In this document: piece by piece, positions 14,889 to 50,552 of the stretch
Position numbering within the stretch: position 1 is the first letter of the stretch
Layout of the letters: each line of letters begins with the position of its first letter
Assembly: GCF_002196855.1 (NCBI RefSeq)
Contig: NZ_NIPW01000010.1
Span: 310,001 to 374,000, forward strand
Reading direction: 5' to 3'
DNA from: Haematobacter genomosp. 1
GTDB lineage: Bacteria > Pseudomonadota > Alphaproteobacteria > Rhodobacterales > Rhodobacteraceae
Length of the DNA: 64,000 nucleotides
Notes under the pieces: generated by a model
Told to the model about the DNA's origin: nothing
The model's database searches: none
Seen by the model: only the letters and a program-made list of their open reading frames with translations
Translations under genes and position numbers: made by a program

Positions 14889-14916
14889 TTGACTGTGCGG
14901 CGAACTTCTATAGAAC
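14889..14916 (+). promoter_or_regulatory. possible rplM-rpsI promoter
   Basis: TTGACT (14889-14894) followed after 16 bases by TAGAAC (14911-14916), or after 14 bases by TATAGA. It lies 67-94 bases before the rplM start and is the best housekeeping-promoter match in the gap. The -10 element is ambiguous. Confidence 0.45.
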
Positions 14917-33165: not shown

Positions 33166-33180
33166 GAACAATGAAAGAAC
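33166..33180. promoter_or_regulatory. LexA (SOS) box of recA
   Basis: GAAC-AATGAAA-GAAC is a perfect alphaproteobacterial SOS box (GTTC-N7-GTTC on the other strand), placed about +1 to +15 relative to the predicted recA transcript and 52 bases before the start codon. Confidence 0.88.
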
Positions 33181-33232
33181 TTCCGGCGAAGGTTGCCGGT
33201 CGCGGCAGGCTGTGACAAGAAGGGCGCATCAC

Positions 33233-34300
33233 ATGGCAATGGCGAACCTCCTCGACATGACGGACAAGCGCGTGAGCGACAAGCAAAAGGCCCTCGACTC
33301 GGCGCTCGCCCAGATCGAGCGGCAATTCGGCAAGGGCTCTATCATGAAGCTCGGGGTGGACAGCCCCGTGACGGAGATCGAGTCGACTTCGACGGGGTCG
33401 TTGGGCCTCGACATCGCCCTTGGTATCGGCGGTCTGCCGAAGGGGCGTATCGTGGAGATCTACGGCCCCGAAAGCTCCGGCAAGACCACGCTCACCCTTC
33501 ACGTGGTGGCTGAGGAGCAGAAGAAAGGCGGCGTCTGCGCCTTTGTGGATGCGGAACACGCGCTCGACCCCTCCTATGCGCGGAAGCTGGGCGTCAATCT
33601 GGATGAACTGTTGATCTCCCAGCCGGATACGGGTGAGCAGGCGCTGGAGATCGTGGATACCCTGGTCCGTTCGGGCGCTGTCAACCTGGTGGTGATCGAC
33701 TCGGTGGCCGCCCTCACTCCCAAGGCGGAGATCGAGGGTGACATGGGCGACAGCCAGGTCGGCGCTCAAGCGCGTCTGATGAGTCAGGCGATGCGGAAGC
33801 TCACCGCTTCGATCGGCCGGTCGAACTGCATGGTGATCTTCATCAACCAGATCCGCATGAAGATCGGCGTGATGTTCGGTTCTCCCGAAACCACTTCCGG
33901 CGGGCAGGCGTTGAAATTCTATGCCTCCGTGCGCCTCGACATCCGTCGGACCGGCTCCATCAAGGATCGGGATGAGGTGGTGGGCAACACCACGCGGGTG
34001 AAGGTGGTCAAGAACAAGGTCGCGCCGCCCTTCAAGCAAGTCGAATTCGATATCATGTACGGCGAAGGTATTTCCAAGACCGGCGAACTCCTCGATCTCG
34101 GCGTCAAGGCTGGGGTAGTGGACAAATCCGGCTCGTGGTTCTCCTACGGCGATGAACGCATCGGTCAGGGTAGAGAGAACGCCAAGCAGTTCCTGAAAGA
34201 CCACCCCGACGTTGCCTCTACCATCGAGGATCGTATTCGTGCTGCCCATGGTCTCGATTTCGCCATTGCAGAGAACGATGGCGACATGGTCGAGGATTGA
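33233..34300 (+). CDS. recA: Recombinase RecA
   Basis: A 355-residue RecA, normal length, the strand-exchange ATPase and LexA coprotease. Walker [10 protein letters not shown], Walker [13 protein letters not shown], and DNA-binding loop 2 region [19 protein letters not shown]; acidic C-terminus [16 protein letters not shown] 33233 is preferred (AAGAAGGG eight bases upstream); ATG 33239 is possible. Controlled by LexA through the box at 33166 and ended by a hairpin terminator. Confidence 0.98.
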
Positions 34301-34305
34301 GCAAG

Positions 34306-34330
34306 GAGGCCGCTTGAAAGCGGCCTCTTT
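34306..34330 (+). terminator. recA terminator
   Basis: GAGGCCGC-TTGAAA-GCGGCCTC (8-bp stem) followed by TTT, starting six bases after the recA stop. It also lies just past the convergent small lipoprotein gene and could serve both. Confidence 0.8.
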
Positions 34331-34333
34331 CAT

Positions 34334-34561
34334 TCAACGGGTCGAGGGACACCCATTGAATCCGCGACGTTGTACCTCTGTCAGCACACTAGCCTTCGTC
34401 TCCGGTTGTGTGCGCGGGTTGCCATAGAGCTTGCACAGATTGGTCAGGGACATGCCTGCGAGCTCCTGAGCGCGCTGCTCGGGCGTGTTGTTCTCCCGAT
34501 GATTGGACGAAGCCTGTCCACATCCGGCAAGCACTGCCATGACCAAAAGCATCTTTTTCAT
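34334..34561 (-). CDS. Small lipoprotein of unknown function
   Basis: A 75-residue protein with a signal peptide MKKMLLVMAVLAGC whose lipobox LAGC gives an acylated Cys14, followed by a short mature part with two more cysteines (LCKLYGNP and FNGCPS), which could form a disulfide. AAAGGA stands upstream of ATG 34561. It lies between recA and lexA, facing recA. I do not recognise a family. Confidence 0.65.
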   Translation of the reverse strand: MKKMLLVMAVLAGCGQASSNHRENNTPEQRAQELAGMSLTNLCKLYGNPRTQPETKASVLTEVQRRGFNGCPSTR

Positions 34562-35071
34562 CGTTCATCCTTTCCAAAATGACCGCTATGGGAGCATTTC
34601 ATTTGCTATGACCCCCGATAGCTTGTCCATCCGATGCTAGAGGCCGACTCAAGGAGAGCACCGGACATGAAGGGAGTACTCTGCCCCCTGAGAACTGGAC
34701 CGTTTGAAACTGGAGTTTTCGGCTAACCTTCCCTGGCTGGGAGAGTAGCTGAACACAGGCTGGTTCATGACGCGTGCTGACGAGCGCGAGAAGATGGCGG
34801 CTTGACTCAAGGCTACCATGAGGACGCCCTCACGGTGCGATCGGTTGCGAGACCCCGATCAGACCTCCCAAACTCCGCAGCAGAACTGGCCAGCTGCCTC
34901 GACAAAAGCCCGGAAATCCCAACCCCGGTCGACCCAAGGTTCGCTCTCGCACCGATGTTCGCTGATGCTCCATCGAAGCAAGCGCTGAACGTTTTCACGT
35001 CAGAGAAAGACGAAGGGAGCCTTAAAAACTTCAATCGGAAAGCCATAGAAAGCCGCCGATTATCTCCCCTG
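34562..35071. other. 510-base gap between recA and lexA with IS-like debris
   Basis: No credible gene. Base composition is less GC-rich than the neighbours. The part at about 34670-34800 looks like the left end of an IS3-type element. The remainder up to lexA shows no recognisable content; two open frames of about 95 and 120 codons there overlap lexA and have no motif. Confidence 0.5.
34670..34800 (+). mobile_element. possible relic of an IS3-family left end
   Basis: The stretch starting CTGCCCCCTGAGAACTGGAC (34682) followed by TTTGAAACTGGAGTTTT resembles the ends of IS3-family elements, and an ATG (34768) with MTRADEREKMAA sits where the orfA start would be, but it stops after 12 codons. 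No right end or transposase remains. Assigned from memory of IS ends only. Confidence 0.35.
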
Positions 35072-35758
35072 TCAGTAGCTTCGAATAAGCCCGACAAGCC
35101 GACCCTGCACCTTCACCTGATCATCACGGAGAAGGCGGGTTTCATAAGTCGGATTTGCCGCTTCTAGCGCGATCATCGAGCCACGCCGCCGGAAGCGTTT
35201 GAGCGTTGCTTCCTGACCCTCGACCAAAGCGACGATGATGTCACCATTATCTGCCGTGAGCTGTTCGCGAATCACCACGATATCACCGTCATTGATCCCG
35301 GCCTCGATCATGGAATCGCCACGCACCTCCAGGGCGTAGTGATTTCCGCGACCGGAAAGCATCTGCCCGGGCACCGCGACATGATGCGATATTTCACTGA
35401 TGGCCTCGATCGGAGTACCGGCGGCAATCCGTCCCATCACCGGCAGCTCCGTTGCGTGGATCGGGGTGACAGGGCGCGCACCCTTTGGCTGGGAGGGGCG
35501 ATCTCCGTCAATGACGCGGGGCGCGAAGCTTGCTTTCTCCATCGCCTCCGGCAACTTGAGGATCTCGATGGCCCGTGCGCGATGGGCGAGTCGGCGAATG
35601 AACCCGCGTTCCTCGAGCGCAGTGATAAGGCGATGAATCCCGGATTTGGAGCGGAGATCCAGAGCCTCCTTCATCTCATCAAAAGAGGGGGGAATGCCGT
35701 CGCGCTGCATTCTTTTATTGATAAAATCCAGAAGTTCCAATTGCTTGCGCGTCAGCAC
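35072..35758 (-). CDS. lexA: SOS repressor LexA
   Basis: A 228-residue LexA. N-terminal winged helix (about 1-65), Ala113-Gly114 cleavage site in GRIAAGTP, catalytic Ser149 in [10 protein letters not shown] and Lys187 in ATLKRF, so fully self-cleavable. Start is GTG 35758 with GGGAGA upstream. Its own promoter and overlapping LexA boxes lie between it and moeA, giving autoregulation. Typical alphaproteobacterial position behind moaC-moeA. Confidence 0.97.
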
Positions 35759-35778
35759 GGAAACTCTCCCGCCAGTAT

Positions 35779-35804
35779 GTTCCGTTTAAGTTCTAACGGT
35801 GTTC
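35779..35804. promoter_or_regulatory. two overlapping LexA boxes of lexA
   Basis: GTTC-N7-GTTC-N7-GTTC: half-sites at 35779-35782, 35790-35793 and 35801-35804, each spaced by seven bases, so two perfect boxes share the central half-site. On the minus strand the upstream box lies between -35 and -10 and the second runs from the -10 into the transcript start. Confidence 0.88.
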
Positions 35805-43875: not shown

Positions 43876-44138
43876 CGGACGTCCCTCGTTCTTGGCTTCT
43901 TCGGTAGCCGAAAGGGCGGCAGTTGGAAAGCCAATTCCCGCTCGGCCTTTGCGCCGCCGGACACAGGGGCCCGCTCGCGAGCCGCGGATGCAGACGCGCG
44001 GTTTCGGACGCCGGGTGGAGCGCTGGCCTCCGCGCGACGGAGACGCGATTGCCGGCCTCCCTTCCAAAGCTACTTCGGCGGCTGGGGCTGGACGAGGGGC
44101 GGCGGGACGCTTAGGTCCAGTGCCAAAGGAGACCTGCC

Positions 44139-44573
44139 GTGGCCACGCCAGCTTTTGAAGACATCGCCGACACGTTCGACTTCCTCGACGACTGGGAGGA
44201 CCGCTACCGCCATGTGATCGAACTGGGCAAGGCGATGCCGCCGCTCGACGATGCCTTCCGCGTGCCCGCGACCAAGGTGGATGGCTGCGCCAGTCAGGTC
44301 TGGATCCGTCCCGTCATGGAGGGCGCGGGCGCGGATGCGGTGTTTTCCTTTGAAGGCGACAGCGACGCGATGATCGTAAGGGGGCTGATCGCCATTCTCC
44401 ATGCGCTCTATTCCGGGTTGACCGTGGCAGAGGTGCGCAAGGTGGATGCACCAGGTGAGCTGAAGCGGCTCGGCCTTGACGAGCACCTGTCATCGCAGCG
44501 CTCGAATGGTCTCCGCGCCATGGTGCGCCGGATCCGCGACGTGGCGGATGCAGAGGCTGCCCGCGCCTCCTGA
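44139..44573 (+). CDS. sufE: SufE-like sulfur acceptor protein
   Basis: A 144-residue SufE that takes persulfide sulfur from SufS-type cysteine desulfurase during Fe-S cluster assembly. The acceptor Cys50 lies in KVDGCASQVW; FEGDSDAMIVRGLIAILHALYSG is also typical. Start is GTG 44139 with AAAGGAGA upstream. Stand-alone; no suf operon is visible here. Convergent with the DJ-1-like gene, three bases apart. Confidence 0.93.
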   Translation: MATPAFEDIADTFDFLDDWEDRYRHVIELGKAMPPLDDAFRVPATKVDGCASQVWIRPVMEGAGADAVFSFEGDSDAMIVRGLIAILHALYSGLTVAEVRKVDAPGELKRLGLDEHLSSQRSNGLRAMVRRIRDVADAEAARAS

Positions 44574-44576
44574 TCC

Positions 44577-45323
44577 TTATCCCGGACGCCGGAAGAGCGC
44601 GGGCGGAACCAGTTCCAGCGTCGGCTGCGCGCCCTGCATGTCCGCCAGCGCGCTCAGCACAAGGCGGGCCACCGGCGCCGCGGAGGCCGGATTCTGCCCG
44701 GTGACCAGTCCGCCGTCGCGAAGCGCATGGGGCCGGAACAGGTATTCGTTGCGGCCGATCCGCGCGCCGCGCTCTACCAATGCCGCTTCGATGGAATAGG
44801 GCGCGGGGCCTGCGGCGGAAAGCTCCGCATCCGGGGCGGTGCTGATCCGCCGCCGCCGTACTATCGGCTCTCCCTCTGCGTCCAGCGCCGTCAGAAGCGC
44901 CGCCGCTCCGGTGGAGACGGTCGCGACAATACCGCCCTTGGCCAGAACGGCCGAAACAAGCGCGCCGACCTCCGGGGTTTCGTGCAGATCCCACAGCGGC
45001 CCGACACCGCCCGGAAAGAACAGCGCGTCGAAATCCTCGGCCTTGGCGGCAACGATGGGCAGCGTGCCTTGCAGCAGCTCCATCTCTTGCCCGCGCTCCT
45101 GAAAGCGACGGACGGAGCGGGAGATGCGCCCATGCGGGCCATCGACCTCCGATCCGGGCAGACCCGTCGCCTCTCCGCCGAGAACCGATCCCACGACCAC
45201 CTCATGCCCCGCATCGCGGAAAGCCCAGTAGGGGGTGACGAACTCCTCCCAGTGGAAGCCTGCCGGTGTCCGGTTTCCGCCGGTTTCGCGCCGTGAGGTC
45301 AGGACGAAGAGGATGCGCGCCAT
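44577..45323 (-). CDS. DJ-1/PfpI superfamily protein lacking the nucleophilic cysteine
   Basis: A 248-residue Hsp31-like member. Fold motifs are present (YWAFRDAGHEVVVGS, FPGGVGPLWDL with the acidic partner near the N-terminal half). At the nucleophile elbow, where family enzymes have A-x-CHG-PAAL, it reads ATVSTGAAALL: Ser137-Thr138 replace Cys-His. Glyoxalase or deglycase chemistry is therefore unlikely unless the Ser substitutes; a binding or chaperone-like role is possible. Upstream gap shared with the SOS-controlled radical-SAM gene. Confidence 0.82.
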   Translation of the reverse strand: MARILFVLTSRRETGGNRTPAGFHWEEFVTPYWAFRDAGHEVVVGSVLGGEATGLPGSEVDGPHGRISRSVRRFQERGQEMELLQGTLPIVAAKAEDFDALFFPGGVGPLWDLHETPEVGALVSAVLAKGGIVATVSTGAAALLTALDAEGEPIVRRRRISTAPDAELSAAGPAPYSIEAALVERGARIGRNEYLFRPHALRDGGLVTGQNPASAAPVARLVLSALADMQGAQPTLELVPPALFRRPG

Positions 45324-45452
45324 GGAAACTCCTTTCGGGACTTTCCCCTGCTTAAGGGAGTGAAGCCCTCAGGGGAAACCCACAAGTGGGAGAGGTCGGC
45401 GGAAAGGGGCCGGTGCTCCCGCCTCAACCGGCGAAAGACCGCCGGAAGCCAG

Positions 45453-45481
45453 TTGTTATGTTCGCTAAATGTTCTAATACT
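45453..45481 (+). promoter_or_regulatory. promoter of the radical-SAM gene
   Basis: TTGTTA (45453-45458), 17-base spacer, AATACT (45476-45481). A perfect LexA box fills the spacer. The expected transcription start, about seven bases after the -10, falls at or next to the ATG at 45488, implying a leaderless mRNA, which fits the lack of a ribosome binding site there. Confidence 0.5.
45460..45474. promoter_or_regulatory. LexA (SOS) box upstream of the radical-SAM gene
   Basis: GTTC-GCTAAAT-GTTC, a perfect GTTC-N7-GTTC box, 14 bases before ATG 45488. Only the recA and lexA promoters have other perfect examples that I found in the intergenic parts of this window. Confidence 0.78.
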
Positions 45482-45487
45482 GCCCGC

Positions 45488-46579
45488 ATGGCGAAGATTG
45501 GCGATTCTCCTCTCCCTCCTCATCTGCGGCTCCGGGCGCGCGGGGCCGGCAGCAATGCCAGCGGCAGGTTCGAAGCGGAGCGGAGGGAGGTGTTCCATGA
45601 CGGATGGGACATCCCGGAGGAGGAGCGCCTGCTCCGCACCGAACTGCGGATCGAACGTCCGCGAAGCGCCATCACGCGCAACAAGTCACCCGACGTCGGC
45701 TTCGACCGCTCCATAAATCCCTATCGCGGGTGTGAGCATGGCTGCATCTACTGCTTTGCCCGGCCCACCCATGCCTATCTGAACCTCTCGCCCGGGCTGG
45801 ACTTCGAGACGAAGCTCATCGTGCGCCCCGGCATACATGAGGTGCTGGCGCGGGAGCTGTCTTCGCCGAGATATGCCTGCGCTGTCATCGCCATCGGCAC
45901 CAACACCGACCCCTATCAGCCGGTGGAGGCGAAGGAGCAGGTGATGCGGCGGGTGCTCGAAGTGCTCAGCGAATTCAACCATCCGGTGGCCATCGTCACG
46001 AAAGGCGCGCTGATCGAACGGGATATCGACATTCTCGCTCCCATGGCCGCTTCCGGCCTCGCCGCGGTCGGGGTGTCCGTCACCACGCTGGACCCCGACA
46101 TCGCGCGCAGGATGGAGCCGCGCGCGCCTGCGCCTGCCCGGCGGCTGGCTGCGATCCGCAGGCTGGCGGAGGCCGGCATCCCGGTGCGCGTCATGGCCTC
46201 TCCGATGATCCCGGCGCTCACCGATCATGAGATGGAAGCGATCCTCGAGGCCGGGCGCGACGCGGGTGCGACCACGGCCAGCATGATCCCGCTCCGCCTG
46301 CCGCGGGAAGTGGCCGACCTGTTCCGCGACTGGGCGGAGCGGAGCTTTCCCGACCGTGCCGGCCGGATCATGGGACGCGTGCGGGAGCTGCACGGCGGGC
46401 GCGACTACGATCCGGCCTTCGGCAAGCGGATGCGGGGGGAGGGACCATGGGCCGACCTCATGTCCGCCCGGTTCCGCGTTGCCGTGACGCGTCTCGGCCT
46501 CACGCGGGAGGGGCGGGCGCTCCGCACCGACCTGTTCCGCGTTCCACCGCGCCCGGGCGATCAGCTTTCGCTGTTCTGA
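45488..46579 (+). CDS. PA0069/SplB-like radical SAM protein
   Basis: A 363-residue radical S-adenosylmethionine protein. The [4Fe-4S] motif CEHGCIYC (Cys82, Cys86, Cys89; spacing CxxxCxxC) follows SINPYRG, as in the Rv2578c/PA0069 family related to spore photoproduct lyase. N-terminal RGAGSNASGRFE and later IGTNTDPYQPVE are family features. ATG 45488 is chosen with the promoter in mind; ATG 45458 is in frame but would place the LexA box in the gene. SOS control suggests a DNA-repair or damage-response role, which remains inference. Confidence 0.88.
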   Translation: MAKIGDSPLPPHLRLRARGAGSNASGRFEAERREVFHDGWDIPEEERLLRTELRIERPRSAITRNKSPDVGFDRSINPYRGCEHGCIYCFARPTHAYLNLSPGLDFETKLIVRPGIHEVLARELSSPRYACAVIAIGTNTDPYQPVEAKEQVMRRVLEVLSEFNHPVAIVTKGALIERDIDILAPMAASGLAAVGVSVTTLDPDIARRMEPRAPAPARRLAAIRRLAEAGIPVRVMASPMIPALTDHEMEAILEAGRDAGATTASMIPLRLPREVADLFRDWAERSFPDRAGRIMGRVRELHGGRDYDPAFGKRMRGEGPWADLMSARFRVAVTRLGLTREGRALRTDLFRVPPRPGDQLSLF

Positions 46580-46782
46580 CTGTCAGGGATGGAGGCTTCG
46601 GAACCTGCGAAAACCCGCGCTTTCCACATCACAGATACGCGGGAACCCGCACGGAGCCGCCGCTTCGGCATTGATGGCGGCACAGAGGAAATGGTATTCG
46701 ATCCGCTGCGCGCGAGGTTCCTCCGCGCCGACGGCCCTTTGACGACGCCGTCGCATGTTGCCAGCCAGCAGGAACACCGACG

Positions 46783-48402
46783 ATGTCCATCCGCCTTACC
46801 CGACGCAGCCTCCTTGGCGCCGCCGCGGCCACTGCGCTGATGCCACCCCTGCTCGGTATGTCATCGCGCGGCGCCCGCGCGCAGGAAAACAGCCTCCACC
46901 TCGGGACCGCGCAACCCTTCACCTTCGAAACGCTGATTCAGCGGGCCGAGGCCGCGGCAAAGACCGCCTATCGCTCGCCGTACCGGCCCGCGCCGGAGGT
47001 CACGCAGGAAATCGACTACGAGGCCTGGGGCAAGATCAAGTTCAACACGGACCTCTCGCCCTATGCGCGCGAAGGGTCGGGCGGGGCCTATCCGGTCGTC
47101 TTCTTCCACCTCGGCCAGTATTTCCAGAAGTCGGTGCGGATGCACCTCGTTCAGGACAGCACGGCGCGGGAGGTGATGTATTCGCCCTCCTATTTCGCCA
47201 TGCCGGACGACAGCCCGGCGCGCCGCCTGCCGGAGGATTCGGGTTTCGCGGGCTTCCGGCTTCAGGAATGGTGGGGGGCGGACGACTGGCGGACGCAGGA
47301 TTGGGTGGCTTTCCTGGGTGCCTCCTATTTCCGGGCGATCGGTGCGCTCGGGCAATACGGCTTGTCGGCGCGGGGCGTGGCCATCAACCCGGCGGTCCCG
47401 GATGCGCCGGAAGAATTTCCCGATTTCACCGATTTCTATATCGCGGAATCGCCCGATCCCGAGCAACCCGTGACGGTCTATGCCCTGCTTGACGGGCCGA
47501 GCGTGACCGGTGCCTACCGCTTCACCATGACCCGCGGGCAGGACCGCTCCAAGGGCGTGCTGATGGATATCGAATGCACGCTTTTCCTGCGGGAGGACGT
47601 GAAGCGCCTGGGCCTCATGCCGCTCACCTCCATGTTCTGGTACGCGGAATACGGGCGCGCACGGATGGAGGATTGGCGGCCGGAGGTACATGATTCCGAT
47701 GGTCTTGCCCTCTGGACCGGCGCGGGCGAGCGTATCTGGCGCCCCCTTCGCAACCCGACGGAAACGCGCATATCGGCCTTCGGCGATGATAGTCCGAAGG
47801 GGTTCGGCCTGCTCCAGCGGGACCGGAACTTCGACCATTACCGCGATGGTGTGTTCTACGACCGCCGCCCGAGCCTCTGGGTGGAACCGCTGAAGCCGCT
47901 TGGCAGGGGAAGTGTACAGCTTCTCGAAATCCCTACGGATGACGAGATCCATGACAACATCGGCGCCTTCTGGGTGCCTGAGGAAGCGGCGGTGAAGGGG
48001 AGCCGCTACGACCTGTCATACCGGCTTCACTGGGTGGATCAGGAGCCGTTCCCGGCGACAAACGTGGCGCAGGTGATCTCCACCCGCTATGGGCGCGGCG
48101 GCCAGCCCGGCAAGCCGCGTCCGCAGGGCGTTTACAAGATCGCCATCGAATTCGACAATCCGCCCGTGCTGACCCAGATCCCCTATGGCGTCTTCCCGAC
48201 AATCGAGGTCACGACCAGCCGGGGAGAGATCACCCGCACGCTGGTGGAGCCGGTGCCGGGGGGGAACGTCTGGCGCGCGATATTCGACCTGACCGTGGCC
48301 GGGACCGACATTGTGGAGATGCGCGGTTACATGGCGCTCGACGGAAAGCCCCTGACGGAGACGTGGCTCGCCCAGTTCGCCCCCAACAATCCGGGGGGCT
48401 GA
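46783..48402 (+). CDS. opgG: Osmoregulated periplasmic glucan biosynthesis protein OpgG/OpgD
   Basis: A 539-residue periplasmic protein of normal length needed to make beta-glucans. It has a twin-arginine signal (TRRSLLGAAAATALMPP, cleavage near ARAQ at 31-34), the form seen in OpgD and many alphaproteobacterial OpgG. Domain start FTFETLIQRAEAAAKTAYR and segments FHLGQYFQKSVRMH, YSPSYFAMPD and GLLQRDRNFDHYRD are typical. The partner glycosyltransferase gene opgH, usually adjacent, is absent on both sides. Confidence 0.93.
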   Translation: MSIRLTRRSLLGAAAATALMPPLLGMSSRGARAQENSLHLGTAQPFTFETLIQRAEAAAKTAYRSPYRPAPEVTQEIDYEAWGKIKFNTDLSPYAREGSGGAYPVVFFHLGQYFQKSVRMHLVQDSTAREVMYSPSYFAMPDDSPARRLPEDSGFAGFRLQEWWGADDWRTQDWVAFLGASYFRAIGALGQYGLSARGVAINPAVPDAPEEFPDFTDFYIAESPDPEQPVTVYALLDGPSVTGAYRFTMTRGQDRSKGVLMDIECTLFLREDVKRLGLMPLTSMFWYAEYGRARMEDWRPEVHDSDGLALWTGAGERIWRPLRNPTETRISAFGDDSPKGFGLLQRDRNFDHYRDGVFYDRRPSLWVEPLKPLGRGSVQLLEIPTDDEIHDNIGAFWVPEEAAVKGSRYDLSYRLHWVDQEPFPATNVAQVISTRYGRGGQPGKPRPQGVYKIAIEFDNPPVLTQIPYGVFPTIEVTTSRGEITRTLVEPVPGGNVWRAIFDLTVAGTDIVEMRGYMALDGKPLTETWLAQFAPNNPGG

Positions 48403-48403
48403 G

Positions 48404-48433
48404 AAAAGGGGCGCCCGCTGTTGGGGCGCGCCC
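48404..48433 (-). terminator. terminator after the ATPase zeta gene
   Basis: Minus strand GGGCGC (48433-48428), 13-base loop, GCGCCC (48414-48409), C, then TTTT. The stem begins at the last base of the zeta stop codon. Also serves as a barrier between the convergent opgG and zeta genes. Confidence 0.45.
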
Positions 48434-50015: not shown

Positions 50016-50402
50016 CTAGCGGCAGGCCATTGTCACGTTGATCGGGTTTGGCACGAGTTCCTGCGATGCCCCTGTGGCAGCGTCGATGCCAAGCCCGATG
50101 ATGCCGCCTGCAAGGATGTTGCCCGCGAGGGCGGCCCCGCCGCTGCCCGATGTCTTGTGCGTGACATTCACCTCTGTCGGCTCGCATTTTTCTCTGGTGA
50201 GCGAGACGGCGAATTCCGACCGGCGCGGCATCTTGATCGCGCAGGGCGTGCTTGCACAGCTGTAACCATTGCTTGTCTGGACGGTGGCGCCGGGCGGCAG
50301 CGTGATGATCTCGAGCACATCGCTTTTCCCGCGTGTGACGGTGGCGCATCCGCTTATGAGCAATGCAATCGGCAGAAAAAGGGCAACGGAAACCATGTTC
50401 AT
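50016..50402 (-). CDS. Putative lipoprotein between purS and purQ
   Basis: A 128-residue protein with signal MNMVSVALFLPIALLISGC (Cys19 lipobox ISGC) and a mature part with a PEGA-like strand LPPGATVQTSNGYSCASTPC, then a Gly/Ala-rich segment GGAALAGNILAGGIIGLGIDAATG that could associate with membrane. AGGAG precedes ATG 50402. Opposite strand to the pur genes. Function unknown. Confidence 0.8.
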   Translation of the reverse strand: MNMVSVALFLPIALLISGCATVTRGKSDVLEIITLPPGATVQTSNGYSCASTPCAIKMPRRSEFAVSLTREKCEPTEVNVTHKTSGSGGAALAGNILAGGIIGLGIDAATGASQELVPNPINVTMACR

Positions 50403-50552
50403 GAGAAACTCCTGTTTAGTGAGCAGAAGAAATCACCAAGAAGTGAACATTAAGTGAACAAGTCGCGCGGTTTCTCGACCCCCGTTGCCTGAGGAGGCGT
50501 TTGGCGCTACAGCATCGGCCATCCCGCATCGACATCCTTCGAGGAGCCCGCC

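Follow-up and report, generated by a model that had tools for sequence, protein, structure and literature searches.

A radical-SAM gene behind a conserved LexA-type operator, with a probable leaderless start, in Haematobacter and other Alphaproteobacteria

We analyzed a stretch of 64,000 nucleotides from Haematobacter genomosp. 1 (the window) and propose that it carries a single-gene SOS unit. The gene would be repressed by LexA and transcribed as a leaderless message, and its product would be a radical-SAM enzyme with a core like that of spore photoproduct lyase (SPL), likely engaged in the repair or processing of DNA lesions, yet distinct from a canonical SPL. As a whole we hold this reading to be probable. 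Its regulatory part, control by LexA within the SOS response, is very well supported by sequence comparison. According to this model, LexA bound to a GTTC-N7-GTTC box between the -35 and -10 elements would keep RNA polymerase off the promoter. RecA filaments would then trigger self-cleavage of LexA, and transcription would start from the A of the ATG at 45488 or within 1–2 bases of it. The leaderless message would be translated without a Shine-Dalgarno sequence, and the product would, most likely, act on a DNA (nucleobase) lesion, either repairing or processing it. The elements of the locus are the following.

45453–45458, plus strand: -35 hexamer TTGTTA, read from the sequence; a TTGCAA-like column consensus stands at -8 to -3 from the box start in 118 aligned Rhodobacteraceae loci.
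45460–45474, plus strand: candidate LexA operator GTTC-N7-GTTC, GTTCGCTAAATGTTC, within the 17-bp spacer 45459–45475; a perfect box is present at 136/148 Rhodobacteraceae loci.
45476–45481, plus strand: -10 hexamer AATACT; the column consensus is TATTTT directly 3' of the box in the 118 aligned loci.
45482–45490, plus strand: 6-nt gap GCCCGC and the ATG at 45488, the predicted (leaderless) transcript start; the in-frame ATG spacing is kept.
45488–46579, plus strand: PA0069-family radical-SAM protein of 363 aa with Cx3Cx2C at residues 82–89, matched by the NF033668 and PF04055 profiles.

The preliminary description had read the box at 45460–45474 between TTGTTA and AATACT, and every one of these elements is present at those positions. 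It had also noted an ATG at 45488 without a ribosome binding site; indeed, AGGA, GGAG and GAGG are all absent from the 20 nt that precede this codon. A simple consensus promoter scan reported nothing of the sigma-70 type between 45300 and 46800. The scan requires at least 9 of 12 consensus matches, and the TTGTTA/AATACT pair falls short of this. Because the pair is weak by the sigma-70 consensus, the promoter call rests on conservation and not on consensus strength. Rfam lists no RNA element at 44000–47000.

We wondered whether the box might have arisen by chance and lack any regulatory role. The window contains 7 copies of GTTC-N7-GTTC versus 1.38 expected, and none of 100 shuffles reached 7. 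Genome-wide, the pattern was found 129 times versus 48 times for a reversed control pattern. A lone box is thus weak evidence, since the control alone occurs 48 times, and this is what a chance match has in its favor. However, the combined pattern box-YA-N9-11-ATG has one occurrence in the whole genome (4.2 Mb), at the radical-SAM gene, and its control has none. A strict version of the combined pattern gave 61 matches in 61 Rhodobacteraceae genomes, 45 of which have the gene over the NF033668 cut-off: 38 matches were assigned by hand to the radical-SAM gene and 23 lie elsewhere, versus 8 matches of the control. The uniqueness of the combined pattern in the genome, the perfect box at 136 of 148 loci and its mostly fixed spacing from the start codon (both described below) make a chance match exceedingly improbable.

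If the box were an operator, it should be conserved upstream of orthologues, and the preliminary description had staked its proposal on this comparison. A search of 199 genomes of the same family with NF033668 matched 150, of which 147 scored over the cut-off, and the Haematobacter genome holds one match. We compared 148 loci, one per genus, made up of all 147 over the cut-off and one split match (G099), with the other sub-threshold matches left out. At 136 of the 148, the 350 nt upstream of the HMM match contain a perfect GTTC-N7-GTTC box. Of the twelve loci without one, seven have a box with one mismatch 26–27 nt from an in-frame ATG, and another (L124) has a box with two mismatches 27 nt from its ATG. 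The box of L087 is perfect but inverted, as judged by eye from the sequence; the upstream regions of L076 and L171 are cut by a contig end, which leaves 66 nt and 46 nt; and no clear box was seen in the 210 nt upstream of L177. The operator is thus conserved across the family.

A second sample, the best 80 of 594 relatives, which may overlap the first and in which family membership was read from record titles, gave a perfect box at 31 of 34 Rhodobacteraceae loci and 41 of 46 others, with a spacing of 26–28 at 26 of the 34. At one locus (L072) we found two overlapping GTTC-N7-GTTC boxes offset by 11 nt, as at several lexA promoters. In Ruegeria arenilitoris (L368 and L386), the direct box is absent and the matched region is instead preceded, ∼20 nt from its start, by an inverted box.

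The distance between box and start codon is also conserved. At each of the 136 loci with a perfect box we measured from the box start and scored whichever in-frame ATG came closest to 27 nt: the distance is 27 at 95 loci, 26 at 11 and 28 at 12, while at the remaining 18 the spacing is scattered from 21 to 105 or there is no such ATG. A spacing of 26–28 was therefore found at 118 of the 136 loci, versus 1.72 expected when the leaders were shuffled. Despite this fixed spacing, the distance from the box to the HMM start (the conserved part of the protein) ranges between 48 and 150 nt. When the 118 loci were aligned on the box, the columns read TTGCAA at -8 to -3, TATTTT at 15 to 20 and ATG at 27. 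These columns leave 6 nt between the -10 element and the ATG, and the usual start site would therefore be located on or beside the A of the ATG.

A Shine-Dalgarno-like tetramer was detected at 1 of the 118 loci with a spacing of 26–28, a low count that is partly forced at spacing 27 because the -10 element occupies the place of the motif, and at 6 of the 11 loci with a spacing of at least 30. The same test scored 15 of 27 lexA loci and is a crude one, since recA, with its box more than 100 nt upstream, likewise reached just 4 of 30. The leaderless start, which had been proposed from one sequence, is borne out by this fixed promoter-to-ATG distance across genera, and we regard it as well supported at the sequence level.

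The gene could also be under LexA control with a transcript that starts a few bases upstream of the ATG, so that the message would have a very short leader and would not be truly leaderless. The -10 element can be read as TAATAC (45475–45480), one base further upstream, and a 6-nt gap permits a start 1–2 nt before or after the A. Longer spacings also occur at a minority of loci, and it is among those at 30 or more that 6 of 11 carry a Shine-Dalgarno-like motif. However, an unconstrained leader should differ in length between loci, as it does at lexA, where the distance from box to HMM start runs from 35 to 202 nt, whereas the ATG of the radical-SAM gene is at 27 in 95 of 136 loci and at 26 or 28 in 23. 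The 6-nt gap is moreover the same in many other alphaproteobacteria in which the operator is placed differently. A short leader is therefore unlikely, with perhaps one chance in five, and we infer a leaderless start, its exact base still subject to the latitude of the 6-nt gap.

We then compared loci from outside the family. An NF033668 search of the class matched 82 of 144 genomes, 78 of them over the cut-off. The wider alphaproteobacterial sample held 86 loci, the 57 best-scoring and 29 chosen down the list, several of them from one genus; one locus (L231) belongs to the Rhodobacteraceae, and one (L195) could not be framed and was dropped, which left 85. A perfect box was present at 75 of these and missing at 10. 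Here the first in-frame ATG lies 36–41 nt from the box start at 53 of the 75 loci, and the spacing is different at 22. The -35 element lies inside the box, with TTG at box positions 4–6, at 56 of 75 loci versus 7 of 136 in the Rhodobacteraceae. A -10-like hexamer was found 26–29 nt from the box start at 47 of 75 versus 9 of 136 loci, and directly after the box at 12 of 75 versus 98 of 136. When the 53 loci with this ATG spacing were aligned on the ATG, the -10 element again ended 6 nt before it. The aligned positions of -10 element and box thus show that the two layouts share the -10-to-ATG distance and hold the operator in two places ∼12 bp apart.

Leaderlessness is not obligatory, because the named Rhizobiaceae loci are an exception, with a start codon 54–132 nt after the box. 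Eight of these loci (L369, L373, L374, L387, L389, L406, L412 and L414) keep the box and a TAGGAA-like -10 element. They have ATCAT or ATCAG at the leaderless position and an in-frame ATG 76–132 nt after the box, an apparent loss of the leaderless start as judged from these sequences.

The operator itself changes beyond the class. A phylum-level search with NF033668 matched 90 of 199 genomes, 84 over the cut-off. At all 31 over-cut-off loci from other classes, which are presumably beta- and gammaproteobacterial, we looked for CTGT-N8-ACAG upstream of the gene and found it at 22 but not at 9. In Aeromonas caviae (L442), the first base of this motif lies 31 nt before the ATG of the PA0069-type gene. 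LexA-type control thus appears to survive a change of operator, since CTGT-N8-ACAG precedes the gene at 22 of the 31 loci. Among actinobacterial relatives, just four in number and taken from a plasmid collection, a GAAC-N4/5-GTTC-type site precedes the gene in every case, once with a mismatch; three of them have a start codon 22–23 nt from the start of the site.

The window also holds the presumed repressor and recA, each with boxes of its own:

35078–35758, minus strand: lexA, presumed repressor, ∼10 kb from the radical-SAM gene (TIGR00498, 189 bits; PF01726, PF00717).
35779–35804, plus strand: two overlapping GTTC-N7-GTTC boxes upstream of lexA, found by pattern search.
33278–34240, plus strand: recA, HMM-matched part (TIGR02012, 573 bits; PF00154).
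33166–33180, minus strand: GTTC-N7-GTTC box upstream of recA, in the opposite orientation to the gene, found by pattern search.

The three genes with their boxes lie within ∼13 kb (33166–35804 and 45460–46579). In at least three relatives (G002, G022 and G027), lexA and the radical-SAM gene are likewise at most ∼10 kb apart. Perfect boxes were found at 27 of 30 recA and 30 of 30 lexA loci of the Rhodobacteraceae (L296–L355). These boxes run opposite to the gene, with one recA locus also showing a direct box, and they lie at -35 to -202 (lexA) and -106 to -131 (recA) from the HMM start. Unlike them, the boxes of the radical-SAM gene run with the gene. G025, the only one of 31 genomes without a lexA match, is also without the radical-SAM gene, a single case.

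Two further boxes in the window were noted. A gene at 50016–50402 (minus strand) has a perfect, AT-rich box at 50445–50459 (minus strand), which begins 57 nt ahead of its ATG. The 128-aa product of this gene reads as lipoprotein-like and has no Pfam match, and its leader has an ordinary AGGAG; it is possibly another SOS gene. A perfect box at 14902–14916 (minus strand), GTTCTATAGAAGTTC, lies in reverse orientation ∼70 nt upstream of an ORF whose translation reads as rplM-like, and may be a chance match.

Does the radical-SAM gene have functional partners at its locus? We compared the neighbors at 80 named loci with flanks of up to 4 kb. At 24 of 34 Rhodobacteraceae loci and at none of 46 others, the radical-SAM gene had a homologue of the window's sufE, its purC or its gene at 48433 nearby. 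This pattern looks like family synteny, and we rejected its reading as an operon or a functional neighborhood. Nor did we assign the box to the divergent DJ-1/PfpI gene or to the downstream mdoG, as neither turned up at any of the 80 loci. No operon partner of the radical-SAM gene was seen in this comparison.

The product belongs to the PA0069 family of radical-SAM proteins, with 497.2 bits against NF033668 (cut-off 360) and 74.5 bits against PF04055 (cut-off 29.5). It is not a member of the Rv2578c family (NF038135, 238.9 bits, cut-off 430) or of the SPL families, against whose models it scored 10.4 bits (TIGR04070, cut-off 400) and 11.9 bits (TIGR03886, cut-off 437.55). Searches of PDB sequences up to E 10 returned no SPL chain, only weak rows with NifB first. 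The CxxxCxxC cluster of the preliminary description is found at C82, C86 and C89, and these three cysteines are invariant in 167 of 167 proteins. Among the same 167 proteins there is no fourth invariant cysteine, the commonest other Cys column reaching 44. Position 88 is Tyr in all 167; at position 90, 154 proteins have Phe and 13 have Tyr. Going by the numbering of the cluster, positions 88 and 90 may be the counterparts of SPL Y97 and Y99.

We predicted the structure of the product with AlphaFold2 from 43 sequences (pLDDT 82.5, pTM 0.81; residues 1–48 below pLDDT 50). With this model, the six best Foldseek rows are all spore photoproduct lyase, at E values from 3.7e-9 to 3.1e-8. In VIA-align 2, SPL reaches Z scores of 19.1–19.4 versus 15.2 for NifB, the next fold. 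NifB is followed by SuiB, PFL-activase, lipoyl synthase and SkfB, with RlmN lower. The closest solved fold is thus that of SPL (PDB 4FHC and others), with 4FHF superposing at Z 19.4 and 3.5 Å over 267 residues, at 14% identity. The relation is visible by fold only. The earlier label of the product as SplB-like accordingly stands for the fold, where SPL is the top match of the model, but not for family membership, where the SPL models stay far below their cut-offs. As far as the model goes, the enzyme is structurally nearest to SPL but is not a canonical SPL.

These data bear on what the enzyme might do. In a true SplB-type photoproduct lyase, SOS induction would bring about direct reversal of a thymine photoproduct. 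In favor, no fold matches better than SPL (Foldseek E 3.7e-9; Z 19.4), the radical-SAM cluster motif is present, and all 167 proteins have Tyr directly before the last cluster Cys. The available parts of two papers make this proposal, one for 'splB' (PMC3323433) and one for Paracoccus (PMC3925955). On the contrary, the SPL models fail to recognize the protein, the PDB sequence searches up to E 10 returned no SPL chain, none of its cysteines beyond the cluster three is invariant, and Phe stands in 154 of 167 proteins at the presumed place of the SPL relay Tyr. SPL is described as using a cysteine H-donor, C141, and two tyrosines, and the spore photoproduct as a lesion of endospores (both from the accessible part of PMC5368176). 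We therefore consider a true SplB-type lyase improbable, somewhat more so than a short leader.

Alternatively, the enzyme could be SOS-induced and modify RNA or protein, not DNA, in the service of stress tolerance. The folds that follow SPL, namely NifB, SuiB, PFL-activase, lipoyl synthase, SkfB and RlmN, are compatible with this, and a fold match does not show function. However, SPL stands ∼4 Z units above every other listed row, and the gene is preceded by more than one kind of LexA-type site, depending on the group, as expected for a damage-response gene. An RNA or protein substrate thus seems rather unlikely to us, about as much so as a short leader. A DNA-lesion role is the most likely one for the radical-SAM enzyme, on the grounds of its regulation and fold. 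Its 5'-deoxyadenosyl radical may act on a nucleobase as in SPL, with a different ending of the reaction, because the family, if the cluster tyrosines do correspond, keeps one relay Tyr and usually has neither the other Tyr nor the Cys.

SOS control of a SplB-like gene is already known in kind. A 2012 study predicted, in the part available to us, that a SplB homologue is controlled by LexA in alpha- and betaproteobacteria, and read it as SOS-controlled photoreactivation (PMC3323433). Its 'splB' is likewise a SplB homologue with a LexA box, and its species set includes Rhodobacter sphaeroides and Paracoccus denitrificans. It is probably the same gene, because in P. denitrificans a perfect box precedes the ATG of a PA0069-type gene by 27 nt. 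The available part of that paper calls the gene a photolyase and makes no mention of leaderless transcription or operator geometry; it gives the trait as absent from gammaproteobacteria, yet Aeromonas caviae has CTGT-N8-ACAG before its PA0069-type gene. The tie between this radical-SAM family and the DNA-damage response is supported by the conservation of the box, but it is not new in kind.

Radical-SAM or SplB genes also occur in other SOS networks. In Streptomyces venezuelae, the radical-SAM gene vnz_31145 shows LexA ChIP enrichment and ∼20-fold induction by mitomycin (PMC9380542, available part); it is likewise a radical-SAM gene, and differs by its actinobacterial operator. The Rv2578c family, against which our protein scores 238.9 bits, is a further near system, alongside the four actinobacterial relatives that have the GAAC-N4/5-GTTC-type site. 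SplB (COG1533) is placed in inferred Bacteroidetes SOS networks and called SOS-regulated in several species, with the different motifs GGA-N5-TCC and CTAA-N5-TTAG and, in the part of the source at hand, no subfamily stated (PMC8565304). SplB-like proteins have also been linked to SOS gene neighborhoods (PMC3765255, available part). The terms radical SAM and lyase had no match in PMC12700426 or PMC6120978.

A literature search found no pairing of PA0069 with LexA or of Rv2578c with DNA damage, and PA0069 by name gave unrelated matches only. Cirz et al. 2006 reportedly place PA0069 among the genes of the LexA regulon in P. aeruginosa. In searches on leaderless messages with LexA or SOS and on splB, no title or abstract opening among the matches listed describes the gene as leaderless. 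The conserved leaderless geometry seems to be the new part of the finding.

Taken together, these results suggest that the PA0069 family is widespread and has stayed under LexA-type sites even where the operator changed, an argument for a role in the response to DNA damage. We tentatively extend this: the PA0069 and Rv2578c enzymes may form a core SOS repair enzyme shared across phyla, with a chemistry of its own other than the lysis of spore photoproduct, whose message is kept leaderless by selection while the operator changes position and sequence. This is possible but doubtful. If true, leaderlessness would have been kept through two alphaproteobacterial operator layouts and three operator types (alphaproteobacterial, CTGT-N8-ACAG and actinobacterial), and the leaderless message would be translatable at once during the damage response.

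The literature, in the parts available, calls the gene a photolyase or UV-repair enzyme without an activity test. The enzyme is a good candidate for an unrecognized DNA-repair tool, and the substrate of the PA0069 family is directly approachable by simple mutants. For a stress regulon, a leaderless start conserved in two operator layouts would be unusual, and the series of loci with the two layouts may serve as a clean natural set for the study of leaderless translation under DNA damage.
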